This document shows, in pieces, positions 2,529 through 62,700 of a stretch of DNA of 64,000 bases. A program made the translations under genes and the position numbers. Origin of the DNA: Rhea pennata (Eukaryota > Chordata > Aves > Rheiformes > Rheidae); NCBI RefSeq assembly GCF_028389875.1, contig NC_084687.1:4562157-4626156 (forward strand). The letters are read 5' to 3'. The notes beneath the pieces were generated by a model that saw only the letters and a program-made list of their open reading frames with translations, did not search any database and had not been told where the DNA came from. Within the stretch, counting starts at the first letter, position 1, and every line of letters starts with the position of its first letter.

Positions 2529-2573
2529 GGCTCTGGTTTCTCCTGCGTGTCGTGCACCTTCTCCAGCAGCACC

Positions 2574-3515: not shown

Positions 3516-3521
3516 CCTTAC

Positions 3522-3950
3522 TGCTCATGTTCAAGTAGTTGTTCATCGGTACGTAAAGGACATTGTGGCACTGGACTGGTATTTCCAGCCTAGGTCAGGC
3601 CTGTGGCGGCTCAGGAAATCCTCCAGCATTTCCTCCTCCTCCTCCATCTCTCCCATGCATTTGTCTTTCCTCAGATGCATTCTGCAGGGAGCAAAGATCA
3701 GTGGGGAGATGCAACAGCCTTCACATCTCCCCTGTCTGGACCCTGTTGCCGTGGCTGCTGGCCCCTGTGCCCCTCACTGCTCCCATGTCCTGGCAGAAGC
3801 ACTCATGGTTCTCCTGCACTTTGCAGGGCCTTCAAGGGACAAGTCATGCAAGACTTTGCTGAGCACTTCAGCGATGCAGGGTGTCTGTGCAGTCCTCCCT
3901 ACCAAGCCCACCTTGCCTGCCTCTCCAAGAGCCAAGACAAGCCACTCCAT
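3522..3950 (-). pseudogene. Relic of a pepsinogen gene: decayed exons 1 and 2
   Basis: Two exon remnants lie in the order and orientation of a minus-strand pepsinogen. Exon 1 (3912-3950) starts MEWLVLAL and still ends at a GTGGGC donor like its neighbours. It is 39 nt instead of 56, so 17 nt of the signal peptide are missing and the frame is broken. Exon 2 (3522-3681) keeps a CTGCAG acceptor and a GTAAGG donor. It reads MLEDFLSRHRPDLGWKYQ, then loses frame by one base before a recognisable PMNNYLN end. The family reference is EPLTNYLD in the neighbouring gene. An expanded GAG/GAA run sits in the middle. No trace of exons 3-9 was seen between here and the promoter of the gene at 2.5 kb. Confidence 0.72.
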
Positions 3951-4339
3951 GGGTGCTGGTTTTTTCCAGCGCTTGGCTCCTGTATGCAGTGCCCTGGGTG
4001 CCCCACAGGAGTAGCTTGAGTTCGCTGAAACCTCCACATTTTGTACAGGAGGAGAAATGCCCTTCCTGCTGTCAGCTTCTATCTAGTCTCTGTATCACTG
4101 CACTCAGCTTGTGTCAATATTTTGACACAAGCACAGAGGAGTTCGTGTCCTTTCTCTGGTGAAACTACAGAGCTATTAATACATCTGCTAATGAGCTCCA
4201 ATGATAAAGAGCTTCTAAGAAACAAGTTTGGATCCAGGGAAAGAGAGGTGTTATCTGAGCTTCCACCTACCAGGGTATTTGCTGTTGGCTGCAGTAGTTC
4301 ATTGCTCCTAGGTGCCAAGGGATACTCCTTTCTGTCATA

Positions 4340-5590
4340 GACCGCAACCTATGATACTCTAGTTATTTTTTTACCTGAGCGAATAGCCTCACTTCAGGAT
4401 TTAGGGTCACTTGGATGTCATGGCTAACCTAATCTGGCCTCACATTTGACTCTGATGTAATCATAGATCTTTGTTAAATCTTATCCATCTGCAAGAAAGA
4501 TTAGTCACTTCTCCCATGTATCCCTCAGCAGGTTTCCCAACACCCGGCGAGAGGGACAGATGCAGGGGACAATCAGCTCTATTTCTGGGGCTCTGCAGCT
4601 TTATTCTCAACTGATTGGAGTGACCAGTCTGGCCCTGCAAGCACCAGCAGCAGCAAGAGACAGGACAGCATGTTCTCATGGTGGCTTCAAGGTCACTACA
4701 AACTGCAAGCAAAGCAATCTCCACTGCCAGGGGCTAACCTTATATTTGCCTGATTAGGTCCTGATAAGTATCTCTCTGAACTGACTTAGCAGAAACTATC
4801 AACAAGTGGCAACTGGAGGCAAGAACTTGTATCACCCCTGTTAACAGACGTGCCAAGCATTTGTCAGTGTTGCAGCTGCAACAGCATTTGACAGCACAGA
4901 GCAGAACGGGTTTTTGGGGACATCGTGGTGCTTGGCACCCCTTGGGGAACTCCTGTCCCTGGAGCTGTGAAGACAACCACCTAGAGCTGTGCAACGGCTA
5001 CACAGTTGGCATTTAAGACCAATCTCAGTGCCCTTTTGGTACCTTGGTCCCCAATCCTGAAACCCACATGGTATTTCTTACTTGCAAAGCAGAGCCCTTG
5101 TAGGAATTAGGCTTAGGACACCTTGTCCCTCTTTGTGTCCTAATGGACAATGATGACAGGAATGGAGGTGCAGCTGAAGCCAATGGGAAAGGAATTTGGG
5201 GGATGGCAGCTGGCTGATTTTCAAGGCATAAAGTCTGCAGACCCTGTCTGAGTCCCAAAAGCCTTGCAGAGGGGACAGACCATTCATCACTGCCACTTCA
5301 AGCGCTGCCAAGCATGCAAGAACTCACTGAAGACTGAGACTCAGTCCCAGAGCCTTTAGGGGTTGACAATATGTCATATCACTTTGCAGGAAATGTAAAT
5401 AAATTGACTTCAGATTTGAACGAGACCAGGGGCCGATTCCTTGCCATTTCTACATGCTGAGTTCACAGAAATCTGCCCAGAAGTTTATGATGGCACTTGC
5501 TGCAGTGCCCCGGTGAAAGAGCAGTTAAGACACACAGTCCATCAGTCTGTGTTCAGTCATCATTCAACAAACTCAGGAGAAGGCTAGAGA
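4340..5590. other. Intergenic spacer, nothing recognised
   Basis: Unique-looking sequence between the upstream flank of the relic and the 3' end of the next pepsinogen copy. No coding motif, simple repeat or transposon end was recognised. Confidence 0.45.
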
Positions 5591-5794
5591 CAATATTGGA
5601 CACCACAGCTTATTTGCAGTAATAGAGGATGAAACACTTTTACACAGAAACCCCAGAGAGACAGAAAGACTATACAGGCACATAAAGAATGAGAAGATTT
5701 GTCCATAGAAACTCCATAGGACTCTACGAATGCTCACTAAGGTGTACGTGGCCAGGAGAGCAACTATCTTCTGTTCAGATGGCGCTCCATTCCT

Positions 5795-9877
<4,083 letters not shown>

Positions 9878-9962
9878 GTTTCAGGAGTTGTCCAACGGTC
9901 TGTACACACCGTCTCAGAGACCGCAGCAGGCTGCGCTGAAATCTCCTGCCCAGACTCCTAGG

Positions 9963-9969
9963 TTTTATA
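9963..9969 (-). promoter_or_regulatory. TATA box of the interrupted pepsinogen copy
   Basis: TATAAAA on the minus strand, about 86 bases upstream of the start codon. The spacing is like that of the PGC copy at 17.88 kb. The promoter looks undamaged although the reading frame is broken. Confidence 0.55.
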
Positions 9970-10019
9970 CCTGGAAAGCAGTGACTCACTCTCTTATCTG
10001 CTGACCTCCATTTTCCATT

Positions 10020-10220
10020 ACTGTGACCCATGTCATCAGCATCAACAATTTCTTTGTGTTTTGGTCCACAAGGAGTTTGGGAAGTTTGTGTCCTTAGAGG
10101 AGCATTAAGATGAGAATAGAGCAACTCATGTCTTTGATAGCAGGAACAAAGAATTAACATCTGATAATAGGAAAATTCTTATCTCAACGAAGACAGGAGT
10201 TATCAAAACATCAACATGCT
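10020..10220 (-). promoter_or_regulatory. Conserved upstream block of the pepsinogen array, with TTATC (GATA-type) motifs
   Basis: This flank, upstream of the interrupted pepsinogen copy, shares short blocks with the flanks of the exon-1 relic (11.87-12.13 kb) and, more weakly, of the exon 1-2 relic (4.09-4.23 kb). The clearest is GAGTTATCAAAACATCAACA here against CAGTTATCAAAACGTCAATA at 12.08-12.11 kb. A TGTGTCCTT element is also shared. TTATC is the complement of the GATA core, and GATA factors are known activators of gastric pepsinogen genes. The shared sequence is seen directly; enhancer function is inferred. Confidence 0.45.
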
Positions 10221-10229
10221 GCAGCATTA

Positions 10230-11680
10230 TCTATTTCTTCAAAGTTTTTCAAAGACCTGTTGCTTTCCTCACCAGAGTACACTGCAAAGACCTATAGACG
10301 GCTTCTTGCTCCCAGCCCCAGGGGTTAAGCAAGACAGTGCTTTGCCCAAGAGGTTCATTCTCCTGCAGTTTCCAGCACAGTCCTATCTTCTTGTCATTTT
10401 GTCTCCACTTCTTCATCAGCTTCATAGTCCTCCGCTGTCCCAGTGCAATGTATTCTTTCCTCCAAGTACAGCTAGTCTGCATGGGCTGTACAGCTATATC
10501 CTGCCTCTGCTTTCACATAAGTATTTTGGACAAAAATCACATATTTTTCTATTATTTTTTTTAAATCTTTGTGGAGCAATTAATCTCCTTTTTGTCGCAT
10601 GTTAAAAGGCAGGTGTTTTGCCTACCTGCATCAGATGACCTACCCCCCCAAAAAAAAGATTTGTGATGCTGGTGACCATGCTGCAGTAGTCCTGCTGTCC
10701 TTCACACTTGCATGCAAAGACAGGAAAATTGCTTGTTTGCTTTTCCTCTGTGGAAAAAAAAAGAGAATCAAAACCACTGAGGCTTCCCAAAGTGCTAACA
10801 CGACACAACAAACTAACGCAACACAGCAAACATACCCAAACATTTTCAGTTATAACCTCAACTTTTTCTAGTAATAGGAACATTGAGGGAGATGTTTTCC
10901 ATTTTCCTCAACATGTTTTGTGTAAACCCATCGCTACAGAAATTTCTATAGAAACGTAGCCTGTAGCATGTTACGTGTAACACAGGGATGTCATTCCCGG
11001 ATAACCCATTCCCTTAGCGTCTTCATTGCCTCTGGATTCAGGGCTTTGGCATAGCATCACGAACAGTGCTCTGCTCACTGCAAAGCTCAGACCAGGGTGG
11101 ACAACAGCCACTCCTGGCCAGTGGGCTCAGCAAAATTTGGGTTTCCACTGAGACCAGGGGAGCTGCTGAGCGCTCAGCGCTTTTGGAAACCTGCTCAGAA
11201 ATGCGTAACGGGCAGTTTAACCCAGTGTTTTATACTCATTCAGCAACTGTCGAGGGATAATCAGGTTGTGAATCCCACAGCTAAATAACTGCTCTTCACC
11301 TCTCAAGGAGCTCCGAAGGCAGTCTGACACACAGCCGTTTAATCAGCAGCAATGGAGAGCGCCAACTGCCCTGCACACGCTGACGAGAGGCTAAAGAGGG
11401 ACCTCAGGTCCATCAAGAACGAAATGAGCTGTCTGGAGAAACACAGCATGAAACCATCAGTGTGCAATGCCACAGTTGCTGGGCCAGACGTTTATCTGCC
11501 TCTCCAGGCAGGTGGGGACAAGCCAACATTATCTAGGATCCAGCCAGGCCTGGGAAGGGGAACAGGGCAGCAGCCGTCGTGCTAAAGCCTTCTTTGGAGG
11601 AGCAGATTGCAGCTGAGCTCAAGGCAGAGACTCTGGTCTCTGCCTCAGCTGCGTGACATTTCTGGACACTCACGCTGCAG
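10230..11680. other. Intergenic spacer, nothing recognised
   Basis: Mixed AT-rich sequence with short A/T runs between two pepsinogen units. No pepsinogen exon 2-9 remnant was recognised in the stretch where the exon-1 relic at 11.7 kb would have had them. Confidence 0.45.
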
Positions 11681-11690
11681 CACGTTCTCC

Positions 11691-11741
11691 AGGACACCTC
11701 CACGAGCTGAGGCAGAGCCTGGCCAAGACAAGCTCCTGCAT
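11691..11741 (-). pseudogene. Relic of a pepsinogen first exon
   Basis: On the minus strand an ATG opens MQELVLARLCLSSW. Its DNA aligns with exon 1 of the gene at 2.5 kb, sharing CTTGTCTTGGCC-type and CAGCTCGTGGA segments. The reading frame of the signal peptide is lost after about 12 codons and no usable donor in register remains. The upstream flank is also homologous to that of the neighbouring copies. Only exon 1 and its promoter flank survive. Confidence 0.55.
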
Positions 11742-11869
11742 GAGAGTTGATTCCTCTGCAACCAGCTCCCCATATACAACATCCCAGCGATCTCCTTGGA
11801 TGTTGTTTAAGTGCCTCCAATCTGAGCAGCTTGCTTTTTTCCACACGGGGGAAAAGCCTACTCTCCATT

Positions 11870-12125
11870 ATCTGCTGTTAGCCCAGTGTCACTGTCACTG
11901 TGCTCATCCAGTGTCAATGCTTTGCACATATTTTATTCCCTCGGGAGCACTGGGAAGTGTGTGTCCTTTGCCGGATATTGAGACTATAACAAGGCAATTA
12001 TCTTGTTTGCTAGCAGGATTGATAGAAAGATCAACTTATTAAGATTGGATAAAAGGCAAATTCTGGCTGAAAGCAAAGAGCAGTTATCAAAACGTCAATA
12101 TACTGAGTGTTATCTGCAGGTCCCC
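11870..12125 (-). promoter_or_regulatory. Upstream flank of the exon-1 relic, homologous to other pepsinogen flanks
   Basis: Carries several TTATC/GATAA-type motifs and the shared CAGTTATCAAAACGTCAATA block found upstream of the interrupted copy. A GTGTCAAT element resembles those at about 4.11 kb and 2.65 kb. It is probably an orphaned pepsinogen promoter or enhancer. Confidence 0.4.
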
Positions 12126-12129
12126 ATAG

Positions 12130-13590
12130 GGACTCTGGCTTGCCAAAAGACAAAGGAATAAGGTGCCCTCTGCAGCACACAGAAACATACTCTACTTTTG
12201 TTGCTTTTTTACCCCCAAATTAAACAGCTTTTGTATGTTGAGTCATTTAGTTTAAATGAGAATCAAGGATTTACTGTTTCTGACATCAAAAATTGTGCTG
12301 GCTTGAGCAGAACAGGGTTTAGACAACTTATTTTTCTTCCCAGCTCCAAGCCCCTTTGAGCAGCACTCACCCAAACAGATCTCTAATGCAGGACTTCTCC
12401 TCAGGGCCGAGGCTCTGCTAATTTCCCTTTCTTTGCTTACAGCTTTTTTTCTGTATTGGTTTAACATTTTCATCTTGCACGCAAGCATGCTCCAGTCCAG
12501 GGAATCCTGTTTCCTCTGCTCAGCAGATGACAGCAGACCCTCGTTACATCCCATAGCCACCTCCTCCAACCCTCCTGGGACACTGGAGCTGCGCAAAAAC
12601 AGCAAATGAGATGAGATGAGCTGTGAGTAGAAGGTTTCCTTGCTATCTCGAGGGCTTAAACCATCAACTTTCAACACAAGTCAACAAATCCTATTAAACT
12701 AACAGGCCAAACAGCCACTAAAGATGCAGGCATTCTACAAAATTCCCCATTTCCCCAAACCCACTACCTCCCACAAAGCGTTTCACGGGATTAAGAACGG
12801 CATATAAAGGGAAATGGGGCATTCAGCTTCCCCTGTCACCCAAAGACTTCTGCTGCCTGCAGGCACCTCTGACCAGTGCAGGCTGGGGAGAAAAGCCTGT
12901 TCACAAAGCGACTGCAATCACTCTTTAATCTCCTCCTAGTCTGCTTTAGTTCCGGCTGCTCTGACAGCAATCCCATAGAAAAGTGACTGGTCCCAGCTCC
13001 AGGGCAACTTACCACCCTGACTCCTGGGCCTTGGTCCCAGTCACAAGATACTGCTATTTACCTCAACAAACGATAGCTTCAACTTGGACACAAATGTGGG
13101 ACTGCCAGGAGATTCCCCTGATCATTAGACAAAGACTGTAGCTCTCACAAGCATGTGTCAGCTAAAACCTTCCCTGGAAGTACCAAATCCCATCTTGCAG
13201 TTAGTGAGCAGAAATCTGAGTAAATCCAGTTTTCCATGCCCTGTTATTCCCCTTGCATGTACTGGGAGACATGCAGATGGAAAGAGGCAAGAGTTATCAG
13301 GCTCATGGAAAGGAGAGAGGGGTGAAGTTAGTTAGCAATTGTTTCAAGTCTGAGACATTCCTTTTTAAAATACGTGACCACTTTCTATGTCTTTTAGCTA
13401 AATAACATCCTTGCGCTTCGTTTAAGTTTGTTCCTGCTCAGAATAGGCTACTTGTAAATCTGGCAGTGACATCTGCTTTCACTCTCTGTTTTTTGGAGCA
13501 CATTCTAGAAAAGATAGCTGTTGAAGTTTTTCTTGTTCTATTTTGTATCCAAAAAAAAGAGAGAAAAACAATATTCACTTTATCTTATTT
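12130..13590. other. Intergenic spacer, nothing recognised
   Basis: Between the relic flank and the 3' end of PGC. An open frame of about 141 codons on the minus strand (12252-12677) has no recognisable motif and is treated as chance. No RNA gene or transposon end was recognised. Confidence 0.4.
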
Positions 13591-13600
13591 TTATGGTGTT

Positions 13601-13610
13601 TTTATTTATT
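13601..13610 (-). terminator. PGC: Poly(A) signals of PGC (overlapping AATAAA pair)
   Basis: Minus-strand AATAAATAAA lies about 185 bases downstream of the PGC stop codon. This is a plausible distance for the short 3' UTR of a pepsinogen, placing the transcript end near 13.58 kb. Confidence 0.6.
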
Positions 13611-13794
13611 TGCAGTTGCTTTTGGAAAGAAACCCAAACTTTCATCATACAGATTTCACAGAAGAGAGATTGCAAATTTTGCAGACATGGATGAAGGGAA
13701 GAAACTCCAGATGCTCTGACACACAGAGGCACGAGGAGCTGCTATGCCGGGTAAGTAGAAGCAGCAACACCGTCAGCATGGGAGCCAGTTCTGC

Positions 13795-17793
<3,999 letters not shown>

Positions 17794-25365: not shown

Positions 25366-25509
25366 AATCATAGAATCATAGAATGGTAAGGTTGGAAGGG
25401 ACCTTTGGAGATCATCTAGTCCAACCCTCAGCGTAGCCTGTATGGGGATTGAACCCGCAACCTTGACATTAGCAGCACCACGCTCTAACTGACTGAGCTA
25501 AACCTAACC
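25366..25509 (-). mobile_element. SINE with tRNA-Ile head and CR1 3' tail
   Basis: Read on the minus strand, the element starts with a near-complete tRNA-Ile-like sequence (about 25434-25508). An A box resembling TTAGCTCAGTCAGTTAGAG and a B box GGTTCAATCC are visible, and the anticodon region contains CTAAT. It continues directly into a CR1 3' end (about 25366-25430) with GGTTGGACTAGATGATCTCC and the terminal ATTCTATGATTCTATG octamer repeats. This is the architecture of TguSINE1, a tRNA-Ile-derived, CR1-mobilised SINE described in songbirds. Flanking CAATCA may be a short target-site duplication. It lies within the probable 3' UTR or downstream flank of FRS3. Confidence 0.85.
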
Positions 25510-30500: not shown

Positions 30501-33282
30501 CTAGCCACTAACTGAAAAAGGACACTGAAGAGAGCTGCTGGGACCTGGTAAGGCAGTTCCTAGACTCCTTAAAACACCTTGACAAATCATAAGACAATAT
30601 TTTGTAAGGCACTTTCTATATTCAATTGCATCCTGATGTGACATTTCTGCATAGCATAACCTATTGTTGCAGCAAAGCAAATATGATGCCAGGACTACCA
30701 CCTGAAAAAATGGTGCACTACCAGCAGAAAAACAGCACTTCAATTATCTTAAGGGACAAGCTAGCTGGTTGTGCTCCACTTCTAATCTTCTATTTTAACT
30801 CACTTGGCACCCAGACCAATTCCCACCGCCAGTGGAAAGTCTTTCCAGTGACCGACGGGAGCTGAATGGGGCCTTGTGGAGTGTTAACCAGAGGGAGAGA
30901 CAAGAGCACCATATTTCAAAAAAAATGTGTCAAATTAAATAGTGGCTCCTCAGCTGAGCAGCCCAAACCAGACCTGGTGCGTGCAGAGCCAACCAATCCC
31001 AAGCTGGCACGCACACACACGCACAAGAGCCATAGCAACAAGAACAGCATGGCAACAACAGCTTCTACCCCAAAGAAAAATGTTTAAAATACTCTGGCCA
31101 CAATATAGCTGTATCTGCCTTATTTAAGATGAGGAGCTGCAGCAGGAACAAATTCTCCTAATAAAATTAACTGAGCAGAAAGAATTCCTACAAGGAAAGG
31201 AGGAAACTAATCAATATAACAGTGGCATCCATCCGAATTTTGTCTGCGTTAAGACTGATGAGTTAGCATGTGTCTGCTGAAAGATTTTTTAATATATGAA
31301 GAACAAATAGCTCTGCTTCATCATCACTATCTGGATCTACACAAAAAAAAAAACAGGCAGAATTCTAATTACTCATCTGCATTCTGTAAAGGCAAAACAG
31401 ACAACCAAAGACAAGCAATTCCCATTGCTAGCAACTGAGAAGCATACAATTCAGGAGAGGAAAACCCCACTTACATAAATATTAAAAAGGAGCATACGGC
31501 ATTACAGATTTGCGCAGTACTTCACACAGATACTGAACAGTCATGTGCTGCCCTTCTGGATATGAAGAAGTTTACAAACACATTAGTAGAATGAAAAAAC
31601 ACAAACTTTTTTTCCATTGGTCCCATGTGCCAAGAAAATGCTCAGTTTTTTAAAAGCAAGAGAGAGAGACTGGTAAAGGAACTTATAGGCACCATAGTAA
31701 AATTGGAGTTTATTCCCAGCTCTGCTGATGATTTGGCATGTACTCCAGGGTGAGTCACTTCCCTTCTCTATACACAGGATCCCCATGCACAAGATCTGTA
31801 AAATATAATGACTCCTTTGCCCCCATGTTACAAATTGCTGCCAAACAGTAAATACAAAACATTAAGTAGAACTAGTACTAACAAAGGCAGAGAATGCACT
31901 GAGAAATACAAGAATATTTATACTACTACTGCTATTGATGTGGATTTGGAAGCTCTGTGAAATTAGCAAATCCTCAAAGAAACCTGAAAAGATGCAGATC
32001 ATGCTCTTTTACTTTCTCCCTAGAGTTGAAAGATGCTTAATAAAGCTTTAGTCTTGCAAAAAGCACTTTCTAGCTCCTAGAAGGACACCTCCAGAAACCC
32101 CTCCTACTACAGGTAAACATGGTTAGCTCCAAAGCACAGAGCTGACAGCATAACTAACATCCTGTCCAACACAAAGTATGCCTCCTCCAGTTAAAACTTC
32201 AGCTGCACCACTTACCTTATGTTGTACCAATTACTTTATGAGAGCCAATGCACTAGCGAACTGAGACCACTAGATTTAAGGCTATATATGTCCTGAGCCG
32301 CAATATTGCTAGCATTAGTGTTTTAATTGGGAGTATTAAGTGTATGCATAGGCACATTCCAGTATTCTGGGGGAAGAGAGGCTGCAGACAAACATGTTGA
32401 TTTGTTAGATGCAAGAACTCGGGAAGACATAAGCGTTGACTCACTTGAGCTTACTGGGAATAGAAACTTCAGAGCGCCTTCCTCCAGGAAACACAACACT
32501 CACCCTGCCCTGTCTGGCAGCGACGTCCGCTCTCAAAGGAGAACAGGTTGGAATCATAGCCATAGCGGCGCAAGCAGAGGTAGGGCCACCTGACAGCATC
32601 TCGCTTGTGAGTGTGCAAGATGAGCTCAGTCTGCGTCAGTTCCATAATCCCAGATCCCAGCTCGTTACCTTCATCATCCACATTCGTTACCTGCAGAGGT
32701 GGCACGGCTTGCATCAGGAAAATCTGTGTACTTGTACCCAAAGAAGTGCTACAGGTTTAGGCCCACCACCAAAGATATTTTAATTCCCATGGACTTCCCT
32801 TTCATTTACTAAGATGCATTTTTTTCAGTTGAGAGCATGAATTCATTGTTGGCAGAAGGCGCCAAGTTGGCAGCCTTGGAGACTGTATGCTTGGCAGTTC
32901 AGCTGATGTCTCAACACAAACACTGGAAGATAGCCCTGAGCAATAAGAGATTTCTCTCCAATTCTCCATTTCCTTGCTAAGGGAGAATCTCAGTGGAGAA
33001 GTACTATCTGAGTCCTATTTTTCAAGCAAGGTTTCTTAATTAAAAAACAAAAAAAACCAACAAAAACATATCTGTAAATCTCATCACATGAAAGAATTCA
33101 TGTGAAAGAGCAGGGGTTTTCTTTGCTTTCCTGCCTGGCACCCAACCCAAGCTGATGTTTCCTAGTAGTTGTTGATGTTACAGATTCCCCTCTGACGATG
33201 AAAGTCCAATCTGTACCTTAAATTTGGTGGGATGGTTGTCTAGGATGCTATCCCTGCACAGACAACTGCAGCAGCTCCCCAT
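27534..33282 (-). CDS. FRS3: Fibroblast growth factor receptor substrate 3 (SNT-2 adaptor)
   Basis: Membrane-anchored docking protein that links FGF and neurotrophin receptors to GRB2 and SHP2. Five minus-strand coding exons: 33217-33282, 32504-32690, 29972-30133, 29230-29387 and 27534-28475. They total 1515 nt, or 504 aa (human about 492), in consistent phase. The N-terminus MGSCCSCL carries the myristoylation Gly2 and following cysteines. An IRS-type PTB domain covers about residues 13-115 (TNVDDEGNELGSGIMEL, then WPYLCLRRYGYDSNLFSF and GIFAFKCSRAEEIFNLL). The large last exon holds four GRB2-type YxN sites, Y195 (YVN), Y294 (YEN), Y336 (YEN) and Y383 (YMN). It also has two SHP2-type sites, Y432 (YIQV) and Y467 (YAVI), the same set as FRS2/FRS3 of mammals. 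A 5' UTR piece (to 33305) precedes the ATG behind an AG acceptor, so at least one upstream non-coding exon exists. Confidence 0.96.
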
Positions 33283-37170: not shown

Positions 37171-37194
37171 GGTGACAGGGAGGCAATCGGGATG

Positions 37195-37790
37195 CTGAGG
37201 TGTCCATGGGGCAGGAGGGGATGCTGGGGGTGGGAGCCATCGGGGCAGGAGGGGTGCTGGGAGGGGTCAGTGGGGCAGGAGGGATGCTGTGAGTGGAGGT
37301 CAGTGGGGCAGGAGGGGATGCTGTGGGGTCAGTGGGGCAGGAGGGGATGCTGTGGGGTCAGTGGGACGGGAGGGATGCTGTGGGTGGAGGTCAGTGGGGC
37401 AGGAGGGGATGCTGTGAGGTCAGTGGGACGGGAGGGATGCTGTGAGTGGAGGTCAGTGGGGCAGGAGGGGATGCTGTGGGTGGAGGTCAGTGGGGCAGGA
37501 GGGATGCTGTGGGGTCAGTGGGACGGGAGGGATGCTGTGAGTGGAGGTCAGTGGGGCAGGAGGGATGCTGTGGGGTCAGTGGGACAGGAGGGATGCTGTG
37601 GGTGGAGGTCAGTGGGGCAGGAGGGGATGCTGTGAGTGGAGGTCAGTGGGGCCGGAGGGGATGCTGTGGGGTCAGTGGGGCAGGAGGGATGCTGTGGGGT
37701 CAATGAGGCAGGAGGGGATGCTGTGAGTGGAGGTCAGTGGGGCCGGAGGGGATGCTGTGGGGTCAGTGGGGCAGGAGGAGGTGCAGAGAG
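37195..37790. repeat. GC-rich VNTR, about 600 bp
   Basis: Roughly eighteen tandem units built on GGATGCTGTG..GTCAGTGGGGCAGGAGG. Two unit lengths are interspersed: a short one near 29 bases and a longer one with an extra GTGGAG-type insert. Long open frames across it are repeat artefacts, not genes. Confidence 0.9.
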
Positions 37791-42443: not shown

Positions 42444-44948
42444 ATGTCCCTGCGGAGCCCCGCATGGCCCCGGCGAGCCGAGCGGCCCCCCTGCGGCACC
42501 GCCGCCGGCCTCCCTCCCGCCTCCTCCGACAGCGACTCCGGCTGCGCCCTGGAGGAGTACGCGGAGCCCCCCGCCGAGCCCGCGCCCCCCGAGGTGGGCA
42601 GGACCCCCCCCCCCTGCTGCACCCCAGGTCCTGTCCCGGCACCCAGCATCCTTCCCCCCCGGCGGTGCATCGTGGATGGGGAGGGAAGGCAGGAGCGTGG
42701 CGCGGGGGGCATCGCGGGGCCGGGAGCGGGGTGAGCCGGGCCAGCCGCCCCGCCGGCGGCGAGGCACCGCCACGAGCCGTGCCGGGGCGAACCCGCCCCT
42801 CCCGGGGCCGCAGCGAGGCAGCTTAATCCCCTGCCAAAAAATCCACTTGTGCTTCTCTCCCCGGCGCGACGTCCCAAGGCGCCCGCGCGGCCCGCCGCCC
42901 GCTCGCCCGAGCCCGCCCCTCCGGCCGACGGCAACCGGCTCCGCGTCCGAGCCCTGCTGCAGCAGCTGCCGCCGCAGGACTGCGATGTAAGACGCGGCGC
43001 TCGCGGAGCGCAGCCCTTCGCGGAGGCGGCAGCGCCCGGGCGCCGTGCGGCCCCCCTCACCCGCCGCGTCCCCCGTGCCCGCGCAGGAGCGGTACTGCCC
43101 CGGCTTGGCCGAGGAGGAGAGGGAGCAGCTGCAAGCGTTCAGCGCCCGGCGCCGCCGCGAGGCCCTGGGGCAGGGGCTGGCGTGCCCGGTGCCGGGTCCC
43201 TGCCACGGGTGCCCCTGCAAGAAGGTGAGACATCCTCTGCCCCCACCGCCTCGACCGCGACGGACGGCGGCCGGGGCGCCGCCGTGCCCGCGCAGCCGCC
43301 GAGCCCCGTCCGCCTCCCTTGGCTTTGCAGTGCGGCCGGAGGCTGAACCGCGGCGACCCGGGGGTTTCGGCGTCCAGGCTGGGCGATGAGCTCTGGCACC
43401 CGTCCTGCTTCTGCTGCCACTTCTGCCACCAGCCCCTGGTGGATCTCATCTACTTCCAGCAGGACGGCAGGATCTACTGCGGCCGGCACCACGCCGAGCT
43501 CTTCCGGCCCCGCTGCGCCTCCTGCGACCAGGTGGGTGCCGGCGGGGAGCAGCCGGGGCCGCGCTCGGCTCGGCTCCGCTCGGCTCAGCTCGGCTCGGCT
43601 CTGCCAGCTGCGCCCACGCCGGGCCGGGGGGGCTGCAGATGCAACGGGGCCCCCCGGCTGCAAAGCAACGGAGGGGAGGGCGGGGGGCAGGCGGGGACCC
43701 CCGGGAGCCCGACGGCCGATCCGCGCCGCGGGCAGCGCGTCGCGGCCACGTCGACGGGTGCTCGGAGGGCGGCCGGTTTCTGTCTGCCCCCCCCCCCCCG
43801 CAGCTCATCTTCCTGGACGAGTGCGTGGAGGCGGAGGGCCGGCGCTGGCACCCCGAGCACTTCTGCTGCCTGGAGTGCCAGGCGCCGCTGCGCGGGCAGC
43901 GCTACGTCATGGCCAGCGGCCGGCCCTGCTGCGGCGGCTGCTTCGAGCGCCTCTACGCCGAGCCGTGCCAGGCCTGCGGTGAGCCCATCGGTAGGTCGCG
44001 GCGCCGGGGTCCCGGCGCGGCCGGAGCCGGGAAGAGCCCGCCGCTCACCCGCCGCCCCTCGCCCAGGCGCCGACAGCGAAGAGGCCACGCACCAGGGGCT
44101 GCGCTGGCATGCCCGCGCCGCCTGCTTCTGCTGCAGCCTCTGCCGAACGCCGCTCCGCGGGCGGCCCGTCACCTCCCGCCGCAGCCTGCTCTACTGCTCC
44201 GAAGCCTGCAGCCGCGAGCGGGACGCCTCCTCCGCCGCCTCCGACTCCTCTGACTCGGCCTTCGTCTCAGCCCCGTCCCCGGACTCGACGCCCGTCTCCC
44301 GCGCTGCCCGGAGCGCCTCGCCGGCCGCGGGCTGCGGGCAGCGGCTGCAAGGGGCCGGTACGGTTCCCGGCGCGGGCAAAACCGGCCCCAGGGCGTTTTG
44401 CGCCCGCTGCGAGCGTGCAGCCCGCCCGCCGCAGCCGCCGGGGCGGGCTCAGCCCTCTCTCACCCCTCCTCGCTCTCCTCCTTGCAGAGCCAGAGCCGGA
44501 TCAGGCCCCTGTGCACCCTGCCTTCAGGAGCGCGGACGACCGCGGAGCAGCGGCCAAGGCGAGGAGCAGGGATGCTCCGCGCCCTGGCACGCCGCTCGCC
44601 CCGCAGCCCGGCGCGGAGGGTCCAAGCGGCCCCGGAGCACCAGGCCACCCGGCCGCAGGGAGCCCCGACCCGAGAGCGCCGCAGGGCGACGGGGACCTGC
44701 GCTTCCGAGGCGACCTGCCCCCCGCCCGACGCAGCCCGAGGCCGCGGGATGGCGAGCTGCAGGATGGCACAGAAGAGGAAGACTCCTGGTGCCCAACCTG
44801 CTCTTCGTCTTCGGACTCAGACTCAGAAGAGGAGGGTTTCTTCTTCGGGAAGCCCATCCCCAAACCCGGGATGAGCTCCCTGGGCCGGGAGCACCGGGGC
44901 CGGACGGCGAAGCCGCGGGGCAGCAGCAGGCACTGCAGCGTGTCCTAG
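42444..44948 (+). CDS. PRICKLE4: Prickle-like protein 4 (PET/triple-LIM protein)
   Basis: Member of the Prickle family of planar-polarity LIM proteins. Seven plus-strand coding exons: 42444-42593, 42879-42986, 43087-43224, 43331-43531, 43804-43990, 44067-44357 and 44488-44948. They total 1536 nt, or 511 aa (human about 344-384). Exon 1 has the family motif [13 protein letters not shown]. The PET region keeps its end ([11 protein letters not shown], then [11 protein letters not shown] and [11 protein letters not shown]), but its middle is replaced by a Pro/Ala stretch. Three LIM domains follow: about 130-193 ([21 protein letters not shown]), 194-253 and 254-315. Next come the Prickle DSSDSAF motif, an acidic [17 protein letters not shown] segment and the C-terminus CSVS, a CaaX-type prenylation box. 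The start is the first ATG after an AG acceptor (42439-42440) and aligns with the PRICKLE1 start exon. The exon 2 acceptor (CCCAAG/G) is the weakest junction. Confidence 0.88.
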
Positions 44949-45379
44949 CCGCGGCAACACGGCAGCCGCGCTGGCACCGCGTTTAAGCAGAGGAGCAGCG
45001 GGGAGGCTCCTCCCGGTCCAGCACCGCCGTCCTGCTCGCACCCCCCGGCCCCGGCCGCCTTTGCAGTCCCTTCCCAGCGCGGTTTGGAACCGGCCCAGTG
45101 CTGGCAGGGAGAAGCCGCCGGGATCCCCTTCGCTGGCAGAGCGCAGCCTGCAATTCCTGCCGGCCTCGCTCGCAATTAAGAACAGGTAAAGCAAGCTCGG
45201 GAGAAGCCAGCCGACAGCCGGGGCTGCATCCTGCCGCCCCCGACGCCGCGTGCGGATTTCCCACCTGCAGGAGCGGATCCTTGAAGGACGCGGCCCCGCG
45301 CCGGGCACTTGAACCGCGGGGAAGGGGTGGGGGGGGAGCAGCGGCGGCGCTGCAGCCGGCTCCGACACCGCGGCGCTGC

Positions 45380-45385: not shown

Positions 45386-45790
45386 GCTCGGCCGCGATCC
45401 GCGCGCCGCGGAGCCGAACAAGCCTGGCCCGTTCCTCCCCGCCGGCGTTAACGCGCGGCTGGGGGCAGGCGCTGGTGAGGGGCGGCACGGGCGGCGGGCA
45501 CAGCAGGGACGGGACGGGGTCCCCCACTGAGCGCAACAGCGCAGGGGCAGCAAGGGTGACTGCTGCTTTAATTTTAGATTTAAAACCCGCGAGAGGACAG
45601 ACCTCAGCTCTTAACGCAACACCCGTGCGAACAGGAGCCTAGGGAGGAGGAGGAGGAGGAGGAAGGCTGCTGGGTGCAGCCTGGTGGCACCCCTCGTCCC
45701 CGCCGCCAACAGCGGTTCCCACCGGACCCCCGGGGCCGAGCACCCGCTCGTCCTCCCCGCGGGGGCTCAGCGGCCGGCGGCGGCCGCGTC

Positions 45791-48700
45791 CTAGCTGTCG
45801 ATGAAGCTCTCCAGCTGCCGGAGGTGGTGGCCGCGGGCCTGGCGGAGGTTGGCGCGCAGCGCCAGCCCCATCGCCGCCTCCATGGAGGGCTCCTTCTGCA
45901 GCAGCATCGCGGCCGCCACGGCCAAGGCCAGGCCGAAGCGCTGGTAGGACTGCGGGAGGGAGGCGGGGGGGCAGCGGGCGCGGGGCTGCGGGCGCCTCCA
46001 GGGCTGGCGCCCGGCTCGCGAGCGTCTCCGACCGGCGCGGAGCACCCGGCGGGTCCCCCCCCCCGCCCCGTCCCGTCCCCCCGGCACCCTCGCGCCCCGC
46101 GGGGTCCCCCGGCGCTCACCCACTCGATCTCCTCCTTCCTAGCCAGCACGGCAGCGGAGCGGGGGTCTCTGCCGGACGGCAAGGGGGTCGGGAGCGCGGA
46201 GCGGCAGCCGCTGCCGGCCGCAGCCTGGCGAGAGGAAGAGGGGGATGCGCGGAAGGCGAGAAGGAACCGGGGCGAAGGGATGGGGCTGCTGGAAGACATG
46301 GCCGTGTAATCCCACCCTCGGAAAAGCCGGAGAGAAAATCCCCCCTCCAGCCCCCGTGCCGCTCCTGGGGTCGGCTCCCACCCGGAGCGGGGACCCGGAG
46401 ACGCCTCCGGACCAGCAAAGGCACCGGCGGGCCGGGGCAGAGCCCGCTGCTGCCTCCCAGCTCCGTCTGCTCCTCTCCCGCCGGAGGCAGAGCTGAAACA
46501 CAGCTAGCGCCAGTCCCTGACCGCTACTGGGGAAACCGGGCGCTAGTGCCAGTCCCTGACCGCTACTGGGGGAACTGGGTGCACGTGGCGGGGCTGACGA
46601 ACAAAAACAGGGGAAAACAGCCAAAAAAAAAAAAAAAAAAAAAAAAAAGAAGCAGGGGAAAACAGGGAAAATAGCAAAAATGAGTTTTGGGTGAGCGCCC
46701 CTCTCCCTGCCCTTGGCTTGAGGCTCGGCAGGAAGGAGGAGACGCATCGGCCCGTACCGGCTCGGAGTCCTCCTCCCTCTGGCTACGAACGCTCTCCGTC
46801 GGCACCGGCTCCGTCTCCAAAGCTGCGGGGTCCCGGCCGGCGGCGGCAGGACGCAGGGACGTCTGTCCATCCTGGGGGTGGGGGGGAGACGGACGGGCTG
46901 CTAAAATTCCCGGGAAACTAAGAGAGGAGCAGCAAAACGTCCCAGAGAAAGCGGCGCCTTCGTACCGGCTCTGCTCCCGCCGCGCGCCCCTGCTCCGCGG
47001 CCTCCGGCTCGGCACGGCTCATCCGCGGGGCGCTTGCCTGCCCGGGGGGCTCGGGGGCCTCCTGGCTCGGCGGGTCCTGGAGGGGGGGGACGGTGCCGCT
47101 CGGGGACAGGGCGCGGGAGCCGCGCGTGTGCACCCCGGCCGCTCCAAACTCACCGCCGGCTCCGCTTTCCGCGCGCCGTCCGAGCGGAAAGAGCCGACGG
47201 GCTGCGGCTCCGCTCTCTGCGCGGAGCTGGGAGCCGAGGCCTCGGCGGACGAGAGCTTCTCTGCGGAGCGAGGAACAGGACCGGAGCGTGAACGCAAAGC
47301 CCGGAGCCGAGACGCCAGCGCAGTGCCAGAGCCTCCCACCCAGGAGCCAGACGGGCCCCCGAGGTGCCGCCTGGATGGCGCAGAGTCCTTCTCCCACCCC
47401 AAAATCCCACCTACGGGCTTCAGGCCCCCTCCAGCCGTCGGCTGCACCCCAATCCCCCGGGCGCTGCCCCCGAATGCCCCGGGAGCCGCCCCGAGCAACC
47501 CCCGGCGCGAGCGCGCCCGCGGCACAGACCTCTGGAGACACGGGGACGAGGCGGGCGGCAGCCCGAAGCCAAGTTCTCCCGGCAGCGACGTCGAAGGCAG
47601 CGGCGTTTCCAGCCCGGGCCACGGCAGCCCCGGGGCCGGGCGCCCCCCGGGAAGCCCCCTCGTTTCCTGCGGGACGGACAGGCAGCCCCGTGGGGAACCC
47701 GAGGCTGGCGGGGATCTCGCTCGGAGCCGGGCCAGCGTCCGAGTTGAATCCAGTGGGACGAGTATTTCTCCTACTGCATCCCACGCCTTGCCCCCGAAGC
47801 GGGGCGCCGAGCCCCCCCCTGCAGCCCCCCGAGCCCAGCACCTACGCGGGGCCGGCGCCGGGCGGCCGGGCGGGGGGCTGCTCCTCGCCGGGGAACTCGG
47901 GCCAGGCCACGGAGCGCCGGCAGGACACCGGCAGCGGCGGGACCTGGCAGAAGGACGCGGCGCGTCAGGGACGCGGAGCCGCGATCCGCTCCGACGCGTC
48001 CCGTCCTTTCTCCGCGCTCCGATTCCCCTTTACCGGGCGCCAGCCACGTTCGAAGCCGTCGCCGGCTCCTCGCTGCTCTTTGCCGCGGTCCCAGGGGCCC
48101 GGCGGCGCCCGTCTGCCGTCCTCCTCCTCGCCCGGGAAGCCGGCGGGGCCGGGGAAAGGCTCGGCGTCCCAGGGATGGGGCTGGAAGGAGAAATCCCCGC
48201 CGGCGCGGGCAGCGGGGAGGCCGGGCAAGCCGGAGCCGTTTGAGGGGGGCTTCCCGCAGCACGGCAGCGGCCGCGCCGTGGACCGAGCTCCGACGATGCC
48301 TGGCCTCTTAATTAAGGCTTTAGCGACAAGCTCTGCAAAACCTGCACGGTGTCAGCTATCCGCAGGCACGGTTCGCACCCGCTCCTTCCCTGCAGCTGGC
48401 ACTTTGCCCTTTCTGCTGCTTCTTTTGAGAAGGCCAGAGCCGGGCCAGTGGCGCGTGGTGTCCGGGGGTATTTTTTTGTACTTCTGCTTTTGAGACGAGG
48501 GATGAGTCACCCGCCGCCCCCGCGCTCCCCCCCCCAGCTGGGACCCCCAACCACCGCCCCGGAGGTGGAGGAACACCGCAAATTTTAGTCCGCACCCCCG
48601 CTCCCGGCCCCGAGCTCCCCCTGCCCCTCCGGCTCCTGGCGAAGCCCCCTGTCCCGCTCGCCCCGGCTTACCGGCTGCCAGCCGCCTCCGGCGCTCCGGC

Positions 48701-48985
48701 GGTCCCGTCCCCAGGGCGGCGGGCGCCAGGCGGGCCGGGGGACGTCCGCGCGGGGTGGCAGCCGGGACGCCCGCGGCGACTGGGGCTGGGGAGAGGCGAG
48801 CGGGATGGGGCGAACGAACGGGGCCGCGCGAGGACGGGGCTGGGGGGCACCGAGGGGGCGCCGAGACCACCTACCTCCCTGGGGAAGCACGGGGAGCGTC
48901 TCCAGCAGGCGTTTTGGGGGAACATCTCGCCAGCGGGACGAACCCGCGGCCAGCAGAAGGCCCCCACGTGCTCAGCGCCCGGCTC
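45791..48985 (-). CDS. Unrecognised multi-exon gene model, about 494 aa
   Basis: I do not recognise this protein. Minus-strand exons chain in frame through GT-AG junctions: 48875-48985 (ATG at 48925-48923), 48672-48779, 48034-48306 (weak acceptor), 47846-47943, 47415-47773, 47154-47260, 46966-47076, 46758-46871, 46120-46224 and 45791-45949. The last five are best supported. They read ...KLSSAEASAPSSAQRAEP, DPPSQEAPEPPGQAS, DGQTSLRPAAAGRDP, then RKEEIEW / SYQRFGLALAVAAAMLLQKE ... LRQLESFIDS-stop. Most of the protein is Pro/Ala/Gly/Arg-rich and probably disordered. The last exon is compositionally different: a hydrophobic helix (FGLALAVAAAMLL), then a charged, probably helical tail. Three internal exons end with codons for EP or EPA and stay in phase 0. 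The human locus has no gene I know of between PRICKLE4 and TOMM6. The 5' exons could be wrong, and a chance chain in stop-poor DNA is possible. Confidence 0.45.
46503..46575. repeat. Tandem duplication, unit about 41 bp, two copies
   Basis: GCTAG(C/T)GCCAGTCCCTGAC, continuing CGCTACTGGGG, appears twice back to back with only one- or two-base differences. It lies in an intron of the minus-strand gene model. Confidence 0.85.
46623..46648. repeat. Poly(A) run, 26 bases
   Basis: Homopolymer in the same intron, flanked by repeated GGGGAAAACAG(C/G) motifs. Confidence 0.9.
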
Positions 48986-48989
48986 CTGG

Positions 48990-49700
48990 GAGGGGAGGAA
49001 GTGCAAGCGAGCTGGCAGCGCGGGGAGAGCGGCCGGGGCCATCGCTGCCCGGCAGTGCCCCGAGGGGACCCGCGGCCCCCGGGGGCTGCTCCGTCTGCAA
49101 CCGGCGCCCTCCGCTCCCTCCAGCCCTCACCCGGCTCGTCGTGCATGAACGTCACCGAGGCGGCGCCACCCCCGTCCCCCCCCCCCCGGGCCTGCTCTGG
49201 CACGCAGGGACGCACCGTGCTCCCCGTGCAAACCCCGCGGGTCGAGGCGACCAGCTGCGCCGCTCCGCTACTCTTCTCAGCTCGAGCTCGGCCGCAGCGA
49301 AGCCAAGAACCGCCCGGGAAAACGTATCCCCACCGGGCAGACAGCACACGGCTTTCCAGCCGGGCAGTTAATTGTCGTCTCTGCCAGCACGTGTTGCACA
49401 GTGCTGGTGCCTGAGGCCAAGCTCGTGGCACAGGGCTCTGCTCCAGCCTTTCACGCTGCCGAGGGCAGCGCCCGAGGCCGCGCGAGCTGCGCAAAGCCTG
49501 GCTCGCGTGTTGTACGAGGCTGTGCTGTTTGCACGAGGCCCGTGCTCCTGAGCTACGCGCTGCACCGGGCCACACTCCTGCCGCACGGCTTGCACGAGGG
49601 CGTGACGTGAGGCCGCGCTCCCGCTACCCACCCACCCGCCCCGCACGCGGCTGGTGGATGAGGCCACACTTGCACCTCCCCACACTGTGCCCGGCTGTTG
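48990..49700. other. GC-rich interval upstream of the unrecognised gene model
   Basis: Carries a possible 5' exon of the minus-strand model: a GTGAGG donor lies near 49.12 kb. The short frame MHDEP before it does not continue in phase into 48985. Degenerate copies of the 39-bp minisatellite unit occur from about 49.38 kb on. Confidence 0.3.
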
Positions 49701-49706
49701 CACGCA

Positions 49707-49943
49707 GGGCTTTGCAGGAGGACGCCGCACGCGCGTGCATTACACGTGGGGCATTTGCACGAGGACACTGCGAGCACGTTACGTGCGGGGCGTCTGCACG
49801 AGGACGCTGTGTGCGCATTACACACAGGGCATTTGCACAAGGACACTGCATGTGCACTACACGCGGGGCATTTGCACGAGGACGCTGCACGCGCATCACA
49901 CGCCGGGCACCTGCGCGAGGACGGTGGGGACGCGCATGCGCAC
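49707..49943. repeat. 39-bp minisatellite, five to six units
   Basis: Units start near 49707, 49749, 49788, 49827, 49866 and 49905. All but the first step are 39 bases. The consensus contains GGGCATTTGCACGAGGAC, then GCTGCACGCGCATTACACGC. Because 39 is divisible by three, long spurious open frames cross it. The last unit grades into the NRF-1-type site at 49932, next to the TOMM6 promoter. Confidence 0.88.
49932..49941. promoter_or_regulatory. TOMM6: NRF-1-type palindrome, upstream of TOMM6
   Basis: GCGCATGCGC matches the core of the nuclear respiratory factor 1 consensus YGCGCAYGCGCR. It lies about 110 bases before the TOMM6 ATG and at the end of the minisatellite. Confidence 0.6.
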
Positions 49944-49975
49944 GGCGGCGGGAGCGGCTGGGGACGGCATTGCAC

Positions 49976-49987
49976 TGCGCACGCGCG
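49976..49987 (+). promoter_or_regulatory. TOMM6: Second NRF-1-type site upstream of TOMM6
   Basis: TGCGCACGCGCG fits the NRF-1 consensus at all positions, about 65 bases before the start codon. Confidence 0.6.
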
Positions 49988-50016
49988 CCCCCCCCCCCGC
50001 CCGCCGGCGCCGCGCG

Positions 50017-50025
50017 CCGGAAGTG
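50017..50025 (+). promoter_or_regulatory. TOMM6: ETS/GABP (NRF-2) site upstream of TOMM6
   Basis: CCGGAAGTG is a consensus GABP/ETS site, directly followed by a TGACG half CRE, 26 bases before the ATG. NRF-1 plus GABP sites without a TATA box are typical of nuclear genes for mitochondrial proteins. Confidence 0.6.
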
Positions 50026-50050
50026 ACGCCGAAGGCGGGCGGCGGGCGGC

Positions 50051-50369
50051 ATGGCGGCAGCGGGCGGGCCGGCGGCGGCGGCGCCGCAGGGGCCGCGCGG
50101 GTGGCTGCGGAGCGCCCTGCGCTTCGCCACCGACCGCAGCGACTTCCGCAGGTGGGCGCGGGGCCGGGGGGGGGGCGTCTGGGGGCCGGGGCAGGCGGCG
50201 GGGGGCGGCTGCGGGGCGCGCGGCCCGGCCCGGCCCGGGCGCCGCCCGCCTCAGCGCCGGCCTCTCCCGCAGGAACCTGCTGGTGAACCTGGGGCTCTTC
50301 GCCGCCGGCGTCTGGGTGGCCCGAAACCTCACGGACATCGACCTCATGGCGCCCCAGCCCGGCGCCTAG
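50051..50369 (+). CDS. TOMM6: Mitochondrial import receptor subunit TOM6 homolog
   Basis: Small single-pass subunit of the translocase of the outer mitochondrial membrane; it stabilises the TOM40 core complex. Coding exons are 50051-50151 and 50273-50369, giving 65 aa (human 74). The N-terminus (MAAAGGPAAAAPQG) is short and low complexity. The rest is highly conserved: LRFATDRSDFRR across the splice junction, the membrane segment NLGLFAAGVWVARNL, and the ending DIDLMAPQPGA. The GTGGGC donor and CCCGCAG acceptor join in phase 2. Only the N-terminal extension differs in length from mammals. The gene is converging with USP49. Confidence 0.96.
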
Positions 50370-59770: not shown

Positions 59771-62700
59771 TCATGGAAATGTCAGTCTTCCGTCCTTATC
59801 GCTGTTTTTGGATGGCACCTGAGCTTGGAGTTGTTTTTCTGAGATTCCTGCTTTGCCCTGTACTGTTCTTTGCGTGTAAAAAAGAATGTAGGCCTGGGTT
59901 TTGCACACCTCCTCCACACTACATACATTCAGTTTGGAGTCATTGCAGTGGACCCAAAAACCTAGGAATCAAAGTGAGAAAGAGGACATCAGTAAGGGAG
60001 ACATCATTCTTTCTGACTGTATTTTGGAACTCTTTATAGGAGCCATCCACAGAGAAACAGGGTTATGCAGGAGAAAAGGCATCTTTACCTTTTCCTCATA
60101 AATACTTTGGAAAGGAGTTTCTAATAAGAAAAACATACCACTTCTGTGCTGTTAACACAGTTTAGAAATATGAAATCATAGTTCAACCAATTGTATATTT
60201 TGGCACAAAAATTTCACTAATAAAATAAAAATTTCTTGGAGATAGCCAATTTGTACCCCTTTCTCCATAAGTTAGAAGGCAGAATTGATACTACTTCAGC
60301 TGCAGAAAGAGACTGCTGGAAATTCATAAAAACCCTGCGGATGTTATTCATGAATAGTCCCTGTCCAGTTTCAAAACACTTTCTGTTTATCTCATCAGCC
60401 CAAAGATGCTAAGAAAAGACACCCAGCTGGAGCAGCCCCACAGAGTTACATAGTGTAAGAAAATGAACCGTTCATGCTGTTAACAACAAGCAATAAAAGG
60501 CATCCCAAAGGGCTACAAAGCAAAGAGCAGCAATCTGTGGTCCTTGTGCAAAAAAAGAAAACATGCTACTAGCAACACATTCTGGGAAACCAACTACTGA
60601 GTATCAGGAAACTTGATCGCGAACAACTTTGATTGTAAAGCTCTACAGCGCACTGCATCTACGGAACAAAGTACAAGCTGCTTGAATTTGTTTCCCCCGG
60701 AATAAGGCACACGCACCTCCCTCCGTGTTGTAGCAATATGCTGTGTAGTGTCCTGAGCCAAACCCTTTCCCGTGATGCATCACCACAGCGGAGAGGTCAT
60801 AGACAAAGGTCTCTTTGTCAAGAGAGGAGATAGAGTCCCTGCAGCAGTAAGGTTCCATGTTTAATACCTGGTCAAAGAGGACATGGACCCCAATCTTCTC
60901 ACGGTGATTGCGTTCAGACCACCTGCAAACACAAGTGCATGAATCAGGCTCGGGATTCCTCTTCTTGACAGTGATAAAGGGCTGCGGAAGCGCACGAACA
61001 GGAGGCGCAGAAACCTAGCCACTCCTGAGCAACTCTGAAGAGCCTTCACTGCTAGGATCAGATAAGCACTACATGCATTTTTCCTTCTACTTTTACTCTA
61101 ACATCCACTTCAGTTATATTTTGCATAAAATAGATATTATTACTGATGCCCTGAGGTATTTGTTGTGGTAGTTAGGATATTTTTGAGATTTGTAACAGCC
61201 AAACACAAAGAAAGCCAGACACCTATTGTGACAGTCAAACAACATTTAAAATACTCAATTACATAAACTTCCCACATCTCACAATTGCTTGCACTAACCA
61301 TTTTAGAAACTTCTCAAAATATTTACAACTTCTTCTGCTACATTTTATTCAATAGGTAAATGCACAATATTGGTTATTTAAACTATCCAACAACCTCTTC
61401 ACTCAACAGATCAGATCATCCTTCTCACAGCCACTGTTTCAAGTTATCTGCAAACTTAGACAGAGGTTACTGGGCATGATTCAAAGGAATTAGCATTAAT
61501 CTTTACAACTTGTTATATAGTGTGTGTATTAGAAAATGCACTAGGAACAGCCTGCTGATTTTAATTTAAATGCTACCCTGAGAAGGTATCAACACGTCTG
61601 GTTTGGGTAAAATGTTTATACACATGCACCTCCCACACTAATCAGTTGTTTCCAAAAAACCCAGCAGTAACACAATTGCTAGACATCATGCAAGGCATCC
61701 CACTCACCTGAATCGTTTAAGGTGCAGTCGGAGGACCTGAGGTAGTCTGTAAATCATTAACTGTTTTCTAGCTTCACTCAAAACAAGAGGTTTAGGAGAA
61801 GACTTTCGTCGTTTGCCTACCAAAAGAAAAAGATACCAGGCAGAGAATGTTAGATTGTAGATAATTTGCTGGGGGTGGGGGGGGAGGGCGGGAACATCAG
61901 GAACCCTTTTTTCTCTTCCAGTAGCAATAGTCCAGTTCACTGTAAGATGCACTCATAGGATGGAGACAGAAGTAAACACTATTTATGCATTCCTTCACAG
62001 AGGAGGAATTTCTTGGTCAGGAACAACTGGCTTAAAAATACCTAAACTTTTTCATTTTTGTGATGCTTATGAACACACCATCAGTTATCTGCTTCAAGCT
62101 GCTCCTGCTGACATTTCTGCTCTGAGAAACACAATAGAAATAGTAATAGAGGACTTGGGCCAAAGACTTCTAGGGTTGCAGCAGTTTCAACAGAAAAACC
62201 AGCAGCACACAAATAATACTATTTGACATCATATTACTTTAGAAGGTATGATCCATTTATTATACCACTACCATAAAGCTTGTACTAGCAAGCTTTACTA
62301 GCTCAAGAACATTAATACAAGTCAGAGGAAAATGCCTCCAGCAAGGTTCCAACTCTAGAAGTTCTGCCGCCCAAGAAAGAAAAGCAACAGCTAAGCAGAA
62401 ACTGGAAAAGAGGAAAAAAGGTTCCTCTTCCCAGTGAAAGCCTATTGCGCTTTCCAAAGCAGTAACATATGATTATATCATGAAGAAGACGGGTGGTTTT
62501 CAGAGTTTCCAATAAGAAACGGACCTGTTAATTACTTTTCTGCACCTTACTGCACCAGTTGGGAACAGATGGGTTGCTCCTCCTCTATCATGTCTGATTA
62601 GCAGTGCCCCATAGTTTTTGGCACCTACAAGCAGGCTACTTGCTTTTCCGTAAGATTTTTTTATCTGGTTAATGTCTCCTTAGCTATGTAACTCTGAAGT

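Follow-up and report, generated by a model that had tools for sequence, protein, structure and literature searches.

The window analysed here, a stretch of 64,000 nucleotides of Rhea pennata DNA, spans bases 4,562,157-4,626,156 of contig C25 in a genome of 1.27 Gb. The genes around the interval of interest were located as follows:

1397-1738 and 14531-14848, minus strand: aspartyl protease exons (Pfam).
32472-32756, minus strand: exon encoding an IRS-type PTB domain, FRS3-like (Pfam).
43229-44948, plus strand: LIM domains (Pfam LIM, 1e-13) and 3' coding end of PRICKLE4, a convergent neighbour (ORF 43229-44986; stop 44948).
45380, plus strand: AATAAA of PRICKLE4 (motif).
50051-50369, plus strand: TOMM6, two coding exons and the intervening intron (Pfam TOM6p in two frames; ATG).
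60646-61014, minus strand: ubiquitin hydrolase exon, USP49-like (Pfam).

The domains were identified with Pfam, and the gene names FRS3, PRICKLE4, TOMM6 and USP49 are presumptive, in part taken over from an earlier note on this DNA. The gene order in the window fits what we take to be the order at human 6p21.1. A genome search for the PET domain (E up to 0.001) returned six places, none of them in the window, and the identity of PRICKLE4 therefore rests on its LIM domains and its neighbours.

Between PRICKLE4 and TOMM6 the earlier note had proposed a hidden GC-rich protein gene, read from ten minus-strand segments joined in a single frame of about 494 codons. GC content is roughly 69-77% across 44-49 kb of the window, and long ORFs are abundant on both strands of this stretch; since such a composition fills both strands with long ORFs, open frames alone are little proof of coding. 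A chain of ten segments in one frame does run from 48985 to 45791, although the one that we assembled comes to 400 codons; the note does not list the first segments of its own. Its elements, all on the minus strand, are listed from the 3' end of the gene:

45567-45572, minus strand: ATTAAA, a possible poly(A) signal ~220 nt past the stop (motif).
45791-45949, minus strand: last coding exon, Periphilin C-terminal domain, SYQRF...ESFIDS (Pfam PF25234; PDB 6swg_A).
45950-46119, minus strand: intron at EEIEW/SYQRF, phase 0 (splice borders; comparison with PPHLN1).
46120-46224, minus strand: penultimate coding exon, start of the domain (RSAAVLARKEEIEW), phase 0 to 0 (shuffle p 0.004 against PPHLN1 exon 8; frame margin).
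46758-46871, minus strand: coding exon, phase 0 to 0, without detectable PPHLN1 similarity (gene search, frame margin).
46966-47076, minus strand: coding exon, phase 0 to 0, without detectable PPHLN1 similarity (gene search, frame margin).
47154-47260, minus strand: coding exon, phase 1 to 0 like PPHLN1 exon 6, with no detectable sequence similarity (gene search, frame margin).
47530-47666, minus strand: doubtful bridging exon, phase 2 to 1, arginine-rich (frame unsupported by composition).
47846-47943, minus strand: probable coding exon, phase 0 to 2 like PPHLN1 exon 4, GC3 1.00 (codon composition; absent from the best gene-search parse).
48034-48180, minus strand: doubtful upstream exon, phase 0 to 0 (chain only).
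48672-48785, minus strand: doubtful upstream exon, phase 0 to 0, donor GTAAGC (chain only).
48875-48985, minus strand: doubtful 5' exon with good splice sites and a possible start ATG at 48925 (splice sites; composition borderline).

The four junctions named in the earlier note (47154/47076, 46966/46871, 46758/46224 and 46120/45949) are present and all GT-AG. It had placed three of the last introns in phase 0; the phase is correct, but applies to all four of these junctions. Some of the borders that it called strong are so, but our own matrix gave the donor GTACGA a score of 0.8, the donor GTACGG one of -0.2, and each of the acceptors CCCCCTCCAG and CCACCCCCAG one of 2.0. Exon 47260-47154 has the acceptor CGCTCCGCAG and the donor GTGAGT, and the four 3'-most exons measure 111, 114, 105 and 159 nt. 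Within the 533-nt intron that separates exon 46871-46758 from exon 46224-46120 are a 39-bp tandem duplication at 46503-46579 (two copies with 92% matches) and, at 46623-46648, a run of 26 A.

We searched the locus for genes without recourse to homology, using codon composition (assumed GC3 of 0.92, generic protein composition) and our own splice matrices. The minus strand of 45700-50060 scored 51.8, compared with a mean of 3.2 (SD 3.0, maximum 14.0) for 60 dinucleotide shuffles, 11.6 for the plus strand, and 11.3, 4.6, 8.4 and 5.8 for both strands of two other GC-rich stretches. This score and the Pfam domains of the neighbouring genes bear out the hidden protein gene proposed between PRICKLE4 and TOMM6. 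The best parse recovered exactly 47260-47154, 47076-46966, 46871-46758, 46224-46120 and 45949-45791, omitted 47943-47846, and added two short 5' exons (49937-49911 and 49191-49131) that we regard as unreliable. Some of the middle exons were lost or shortened when introns were penalised more heavily or splice sites were given less weight.

The frame margin of each segment was compared with those of 4,000 segments of 108 nt, drawn at random from GC-rich sequence of the window that was taken as non-coding, a null in which 36.5-42 kb may hold PRICKLE4 exons and against which the tested exons vary in length. The margin was reached by 0.0% of null segments for 45949-45794, 0.03% for 46224-46120, 3.4% for 46871-46758, 2.0% for 47076-46966, 0.3% for 47260-47154 and 0.7% for 47943-47846. 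Segment 48985-48875 was borderline (5.2%), and 47666-47530 (26.0%, the best-scoring frame differing from the frame needed), 48181-48036 (59.9%) and 48868-48672 (89.0%), the last two as tested, were unsupported. GC content by codon position in the last exon was 0.72/0.43/1.00, with G or C at 53/53 third positions (chance at 75% GC ~2e-7). Composition thus upholds the last five exons of the ten-segment chain as coding; upstream of 47260, only 47943-47846 looks coding, at the level of probable, and the other segments are mostly unproven. Upstream of 47260, neither a start codon nor a chain of 5' exons emerged that we find convincing.

The earlier note suggested that this gene may lack an obvious human counterpart at the locus. 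Pfam, PDB, genome-search and shuffle results show that it does have a recognisable human relative, and identify it as a paralogue of PPHLN1. None of the features observed suggests a link with muscle, heart or brain, the tissues that the note had singled out. The spliced last exons matched Periphilin_C (Pfam PF25234) with an E value of 1.5e-8, and a 65-residue core did so with 9.1e-9; the Periphilin_C scores of the hidden gene, 35.3 and 36.0 bits, lie above the curated cut-off of 27. Among PDB chain sequences, the sole match at E up to 1 was 6swg_A, Periphilin-1 (E 1.2e-5). A genome search with PF25234 (E up to 1) returned two places: PPHLN1 on C1 (C1:32451731-32451895, 114.6 bits) and the last exon in the window, which alone scored 27.6 bits. 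The one stop counted within the latter match is a TAG that by position is the exon's own, the stop codon of the hidden gene at 45793-45791 (minus strand).

For direct comparison, eight coding exons of PPHLN1 on C1, from MWSEGR to the last exon, were located with a human query. An ungapped alignment of 65 residues between the hidden gene and this same-genome PPHLN1 contained 21 identities and scored 93, against an average of -51 and a best of 27 in 20,000 shuffles; within the domain, 15/52 residues (29%) were identical. Exon by exon, two pairings exceeded shuffles, that of 46224-46120 with PPHLN1 exon 8 and that of 45949-45791 with exon 9. The other three window exons did not rise above shuffles against any of the eight exons of PPHLN1 that were compared (p 0.09-1.0), so that similarity is confined to the C-terminal 65 residues. 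When PPHLN1 was aligned to the locus as a spliced query, the last exons of the hidden gene were recovered as well; for the 5' half the alignment was set aside as noise, the bird and human queries having picked different 5' exons. Judged by these matches, the hidden gene is almost certainly a periphilin homologue. It is not the PPHLN1 orthologue: PPHLN1 itself lies on C1 (~32.38-32.45 Mb), beside PRICKLE1. Two other candidate relationships were rejected. An initial idea, a relative of PERM1, was prompted by a hydrophobic C-terminus and dropped on the Periphilin_C match, and a match to a viral contig (the one relative among 155 candidate stretches) was attributed to chance, as it lies antisense to a 621-codon ORF that we read as a phage polymerase.

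The gene structures can be compared at the 3' end. The last intron falls at the same residue in both genes (EEIEW/SYQRF here, KEIEQ/IYRQD in PPHLN1) and is in phase 0 in both. From C1 splice sites assigned by eye, the PPHLN1 phases are 0 to 2 for exon 4, 2 to 1 for exon 5, 1 to 0 for exon 6 and 0 to 0 for exons 7 and 8, the exon 7/8 border being ambiguous. The corresponding phases in the window, 0 to 2 for 47943-47846 and 1 to 0 for 47260-47154, were fixed by composition and not by homology, and the phase 0 to 0 exons that follow 47260-47154 number one more than in PPHLN1. Because the three exons before the domain are without sequence similarity, pairing of the upstream exons with those of PPHLN1 depends on phase. 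The two genes therefore have in common the C-terminal domain, the position and phase of the last intron, the phases of those 3' exons that can be compared and a tail-to-tail PRICKLE neighbour. They differ in the sequence of the domain and in the one extra 3' exon; in addition, the hidden gene is very GC-rich and compact (~3 kb if the chain is right, versus ~70 kb for PPHLN1).

The PRICKLE neighbours bear on the origin of the gene. On C1, the stop of PPHLN1 (plus strand) lies ~6.4 kb from the last PRICKLE1-like ORF (minus strand), tail-to-tail, and PRICKLE1 LIM exons (recognised by eye) and PET exons (domain search) are found upstream of that ORF. In the window, the PRICKLE4 stop (plus strand, 44948) and the hidden-gene stop (minus strand, 45791) are likewise tail-to-tail, ~0.8 kb apart, and the two pairs have the same relative orientation. 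No gene was recognised by eye between PPHLN1 and PRICKLE1 among ORFs of at least 45 codons in C1:32.45-32.47 Mb. In PMC7019335, ZCRB1 is listed with PPHLN1 and PRICKLE1 at human 12q12, where one five-gene deletion takes in both PPHLN1 and PRICKLE1. PMC5645911 lists prickle2 and pphln1 as adjacent on spotted gar LG5. There, too, a periphilin-named gene adjoins a PRICKLE, but the PRICKLE is prickle2, and the likeness is one of name and linkage. Three PRICKLE paralogues thus each have a periphilin neighbour in one genome or another, as would fit a PRICKLE-PPHLN pair that was duplicated along with the genome, and this suggests that the pair is an old linked unit. In Rhea, PF25234 (E up to 1) found nothing on C12, which carries two PET loci, one of them PRICKLE2 by assignment. 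Among titles and listings in the open-access literature searched, we found neither a description of a second periphilin in birds nor a paper pairing PRICKLE4 with PPHLN1; the gene may already be annotated elsewhere as periphilin-like. A human 'periphilin-1-like' entry, LOC105373347 on X, listed in PMC7854456, shares the name but lies on another chromosome, and is likened to the present gene by name alone.

On the observed homology, 3' gene structure, synteny and coding composition, we read the locus as a protein-coding periphilin-1 paralogue, an ancient PRICKLE-PPHLN duplicate with a predicted TASOR-binding C-terminal domain (probability roughly 0.75). It is best read as a diverged second periphilin copy between PRICKLE4 and TOMM6. 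That there is no gene at all, and that the chain arose by chance in GC-rich DNA, would accord with the long ORFs on both strands and with those parts of the ten-segment chain that do no better than null segments. The homology is, however, far above shuffles, the Pfam score is above its curated cut-off and the coding score is above all controls, and for the last two exons the homology already refutes chance; we consider this explanation hardly credible. A once-functional paralogue whose 5' half has decayed, leaving a pseudogene or dying copy, would explain both the unconvincing start codon and 5' exon chain and the three exons without detectable PPHLN1 similarity. Against this, open frames and canonical GT-AG borders are kept in all five 3' exons, the last exon combines G or C at every third position with 43% GC at second positions, and 47943-47846 has a GC3 of 1.00 as well. 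We therefore think decay unlikely and regard the gene as very probably intact.

An intact paralogue could also stem from a more recent event, local or segmental, that duplicated the PPHLN1-PRICKLE1 block. A single genome was compared here, and 52 residues are too short for a tree, which leaves room for such an event. However, the 15/52 match with bird PPHLN1 contrasts with 50/54 between bird PPHLN1 and its human counterpart, so that the split looks old or the copy fast-evolving. The 6p21-like neighbours (aspartyl protease, FRS3-like PTB, TOMM6 and USP) are in place, and the gar linkage brings in a third PRICKLE with a pphln1 neighbour. Later duplication thus appears improbable. An ancestral PRICKLE-PPHLN pair would instead have duplicated with the genome in early vertebrates, with the hidden gene as the resulting copy of PPHLN1, and we think it likely that the gene is such an ohnologue.

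The genome contains two DUF3715 loci, a domain that we take to be that of TASOR, TASOR2 or TEX15. A model of the last exon had two predicted helices, at 2-19 and 21-51, with a mean pLDDT of 89 and a pTM of 0.54 (two-sequence alignment). A Foldseek search of the PDB with the 52-residue model gave no match at E up to 10, a result made uninformative by the length. According to PMC7544229, C-terminal hairpins of human periphilin dimerise via L326, L333 and I337 and bind TASOR, and L356R abolishes binding and silencing. The hidden-gene residues matching L326, L333, I337 and L356, with positions from that paper and numbering counted on the human sequence, are L, M, M and L, all hydrophobic. By analogy, the C-terminal domain would form a helical hairpin, dimerise with itself or with PPHLN1, and bind TASOR, which serves as scaffold in the silencing complex HUSH. 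We put the chances of a HUSH role via TASOR at about even; expression, TASOR binding and any silencing effect of the hidden gene are what we infer.

The N-terminus is expected to differ. In humans periphilin helps to silence viruses as well as transposable elements. Human periphilin needs an arginine/tyrosine-rich N-terminal domain for silencing (PMC7544229). According to PMC11754731, HUSH silences retroelements, periphilin is its main RNA-binding subunit, and the N-terminal domain of periphilin binds RNA. In bird PPHLN1, the first 130 residues include 12 tyrosines. The minus frames of 47100-50050 hold 1, 2 and 2 tyrosines per 983 codons, with arginine plentiful, and with so few tyrosines this interval encodes no arginine/tyrosine-rich N-terminal domain such as that of PPHLN1. 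The hidden protein would therefore be expected to compete with or tune PPHLN1 within HUSH as a TASOR-binding periphilin, its likeliest role, or else to silence through an N-terminus of other make-up, rich in arginine and possibly in tryptophan. In the chain's five upstream segments, tryptophan occurs 10 times in frame and 3 and 3 times off frame, a hint only, because most of these segments are unproven (four are doubtful) and all were chosen.

Tentatively, and with the odds rather against it, birds, or sauropsids more broadly, might keep a second periphilin through which HUSH has a second form; in this periphilin the TASOR-binding domain would be kept and N-terminal tyrosine replaced, perhaps by tryptophan. 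If true, this protein would be a different RNA-sensing or condensing arm of HUSH, or a built-in brake on it. PMC10380595 describes a differing avian transposon load, with many CR1 copies and loss of L1 and L2. A second periphilin in a bird would mean that HUSH may exist there in more than one form, alongside this different load. The hidden gene also joins those GC-rich genes of birds that are not easily recognised.

Several further features were observed in the window. Sequence at 25441-25501 (minus strand) matches a tRNA family weakly, with 29.4 bits for a gathering score of 29 and an E value of 0.047, and is possibly a tRNA-derived repeat. A G-rich minisatellite with strong GC skew occupies 37189-37778, ~5.5 kb before the PRICKLE4 LIM ORF; at 37207-37778 it has a period of 34 and 18.4 copies, and other periods fit too. 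A 39/78-bp tandem array at 49701-49923 lies between the hidden gene and TOMM6. Pepsinogen-like aspartyl-protease exons extend over 1397-16203 (minus strand), two recognised by Pfam and others by eye, and the presence of more than one apparent copy suggests a local cluster.
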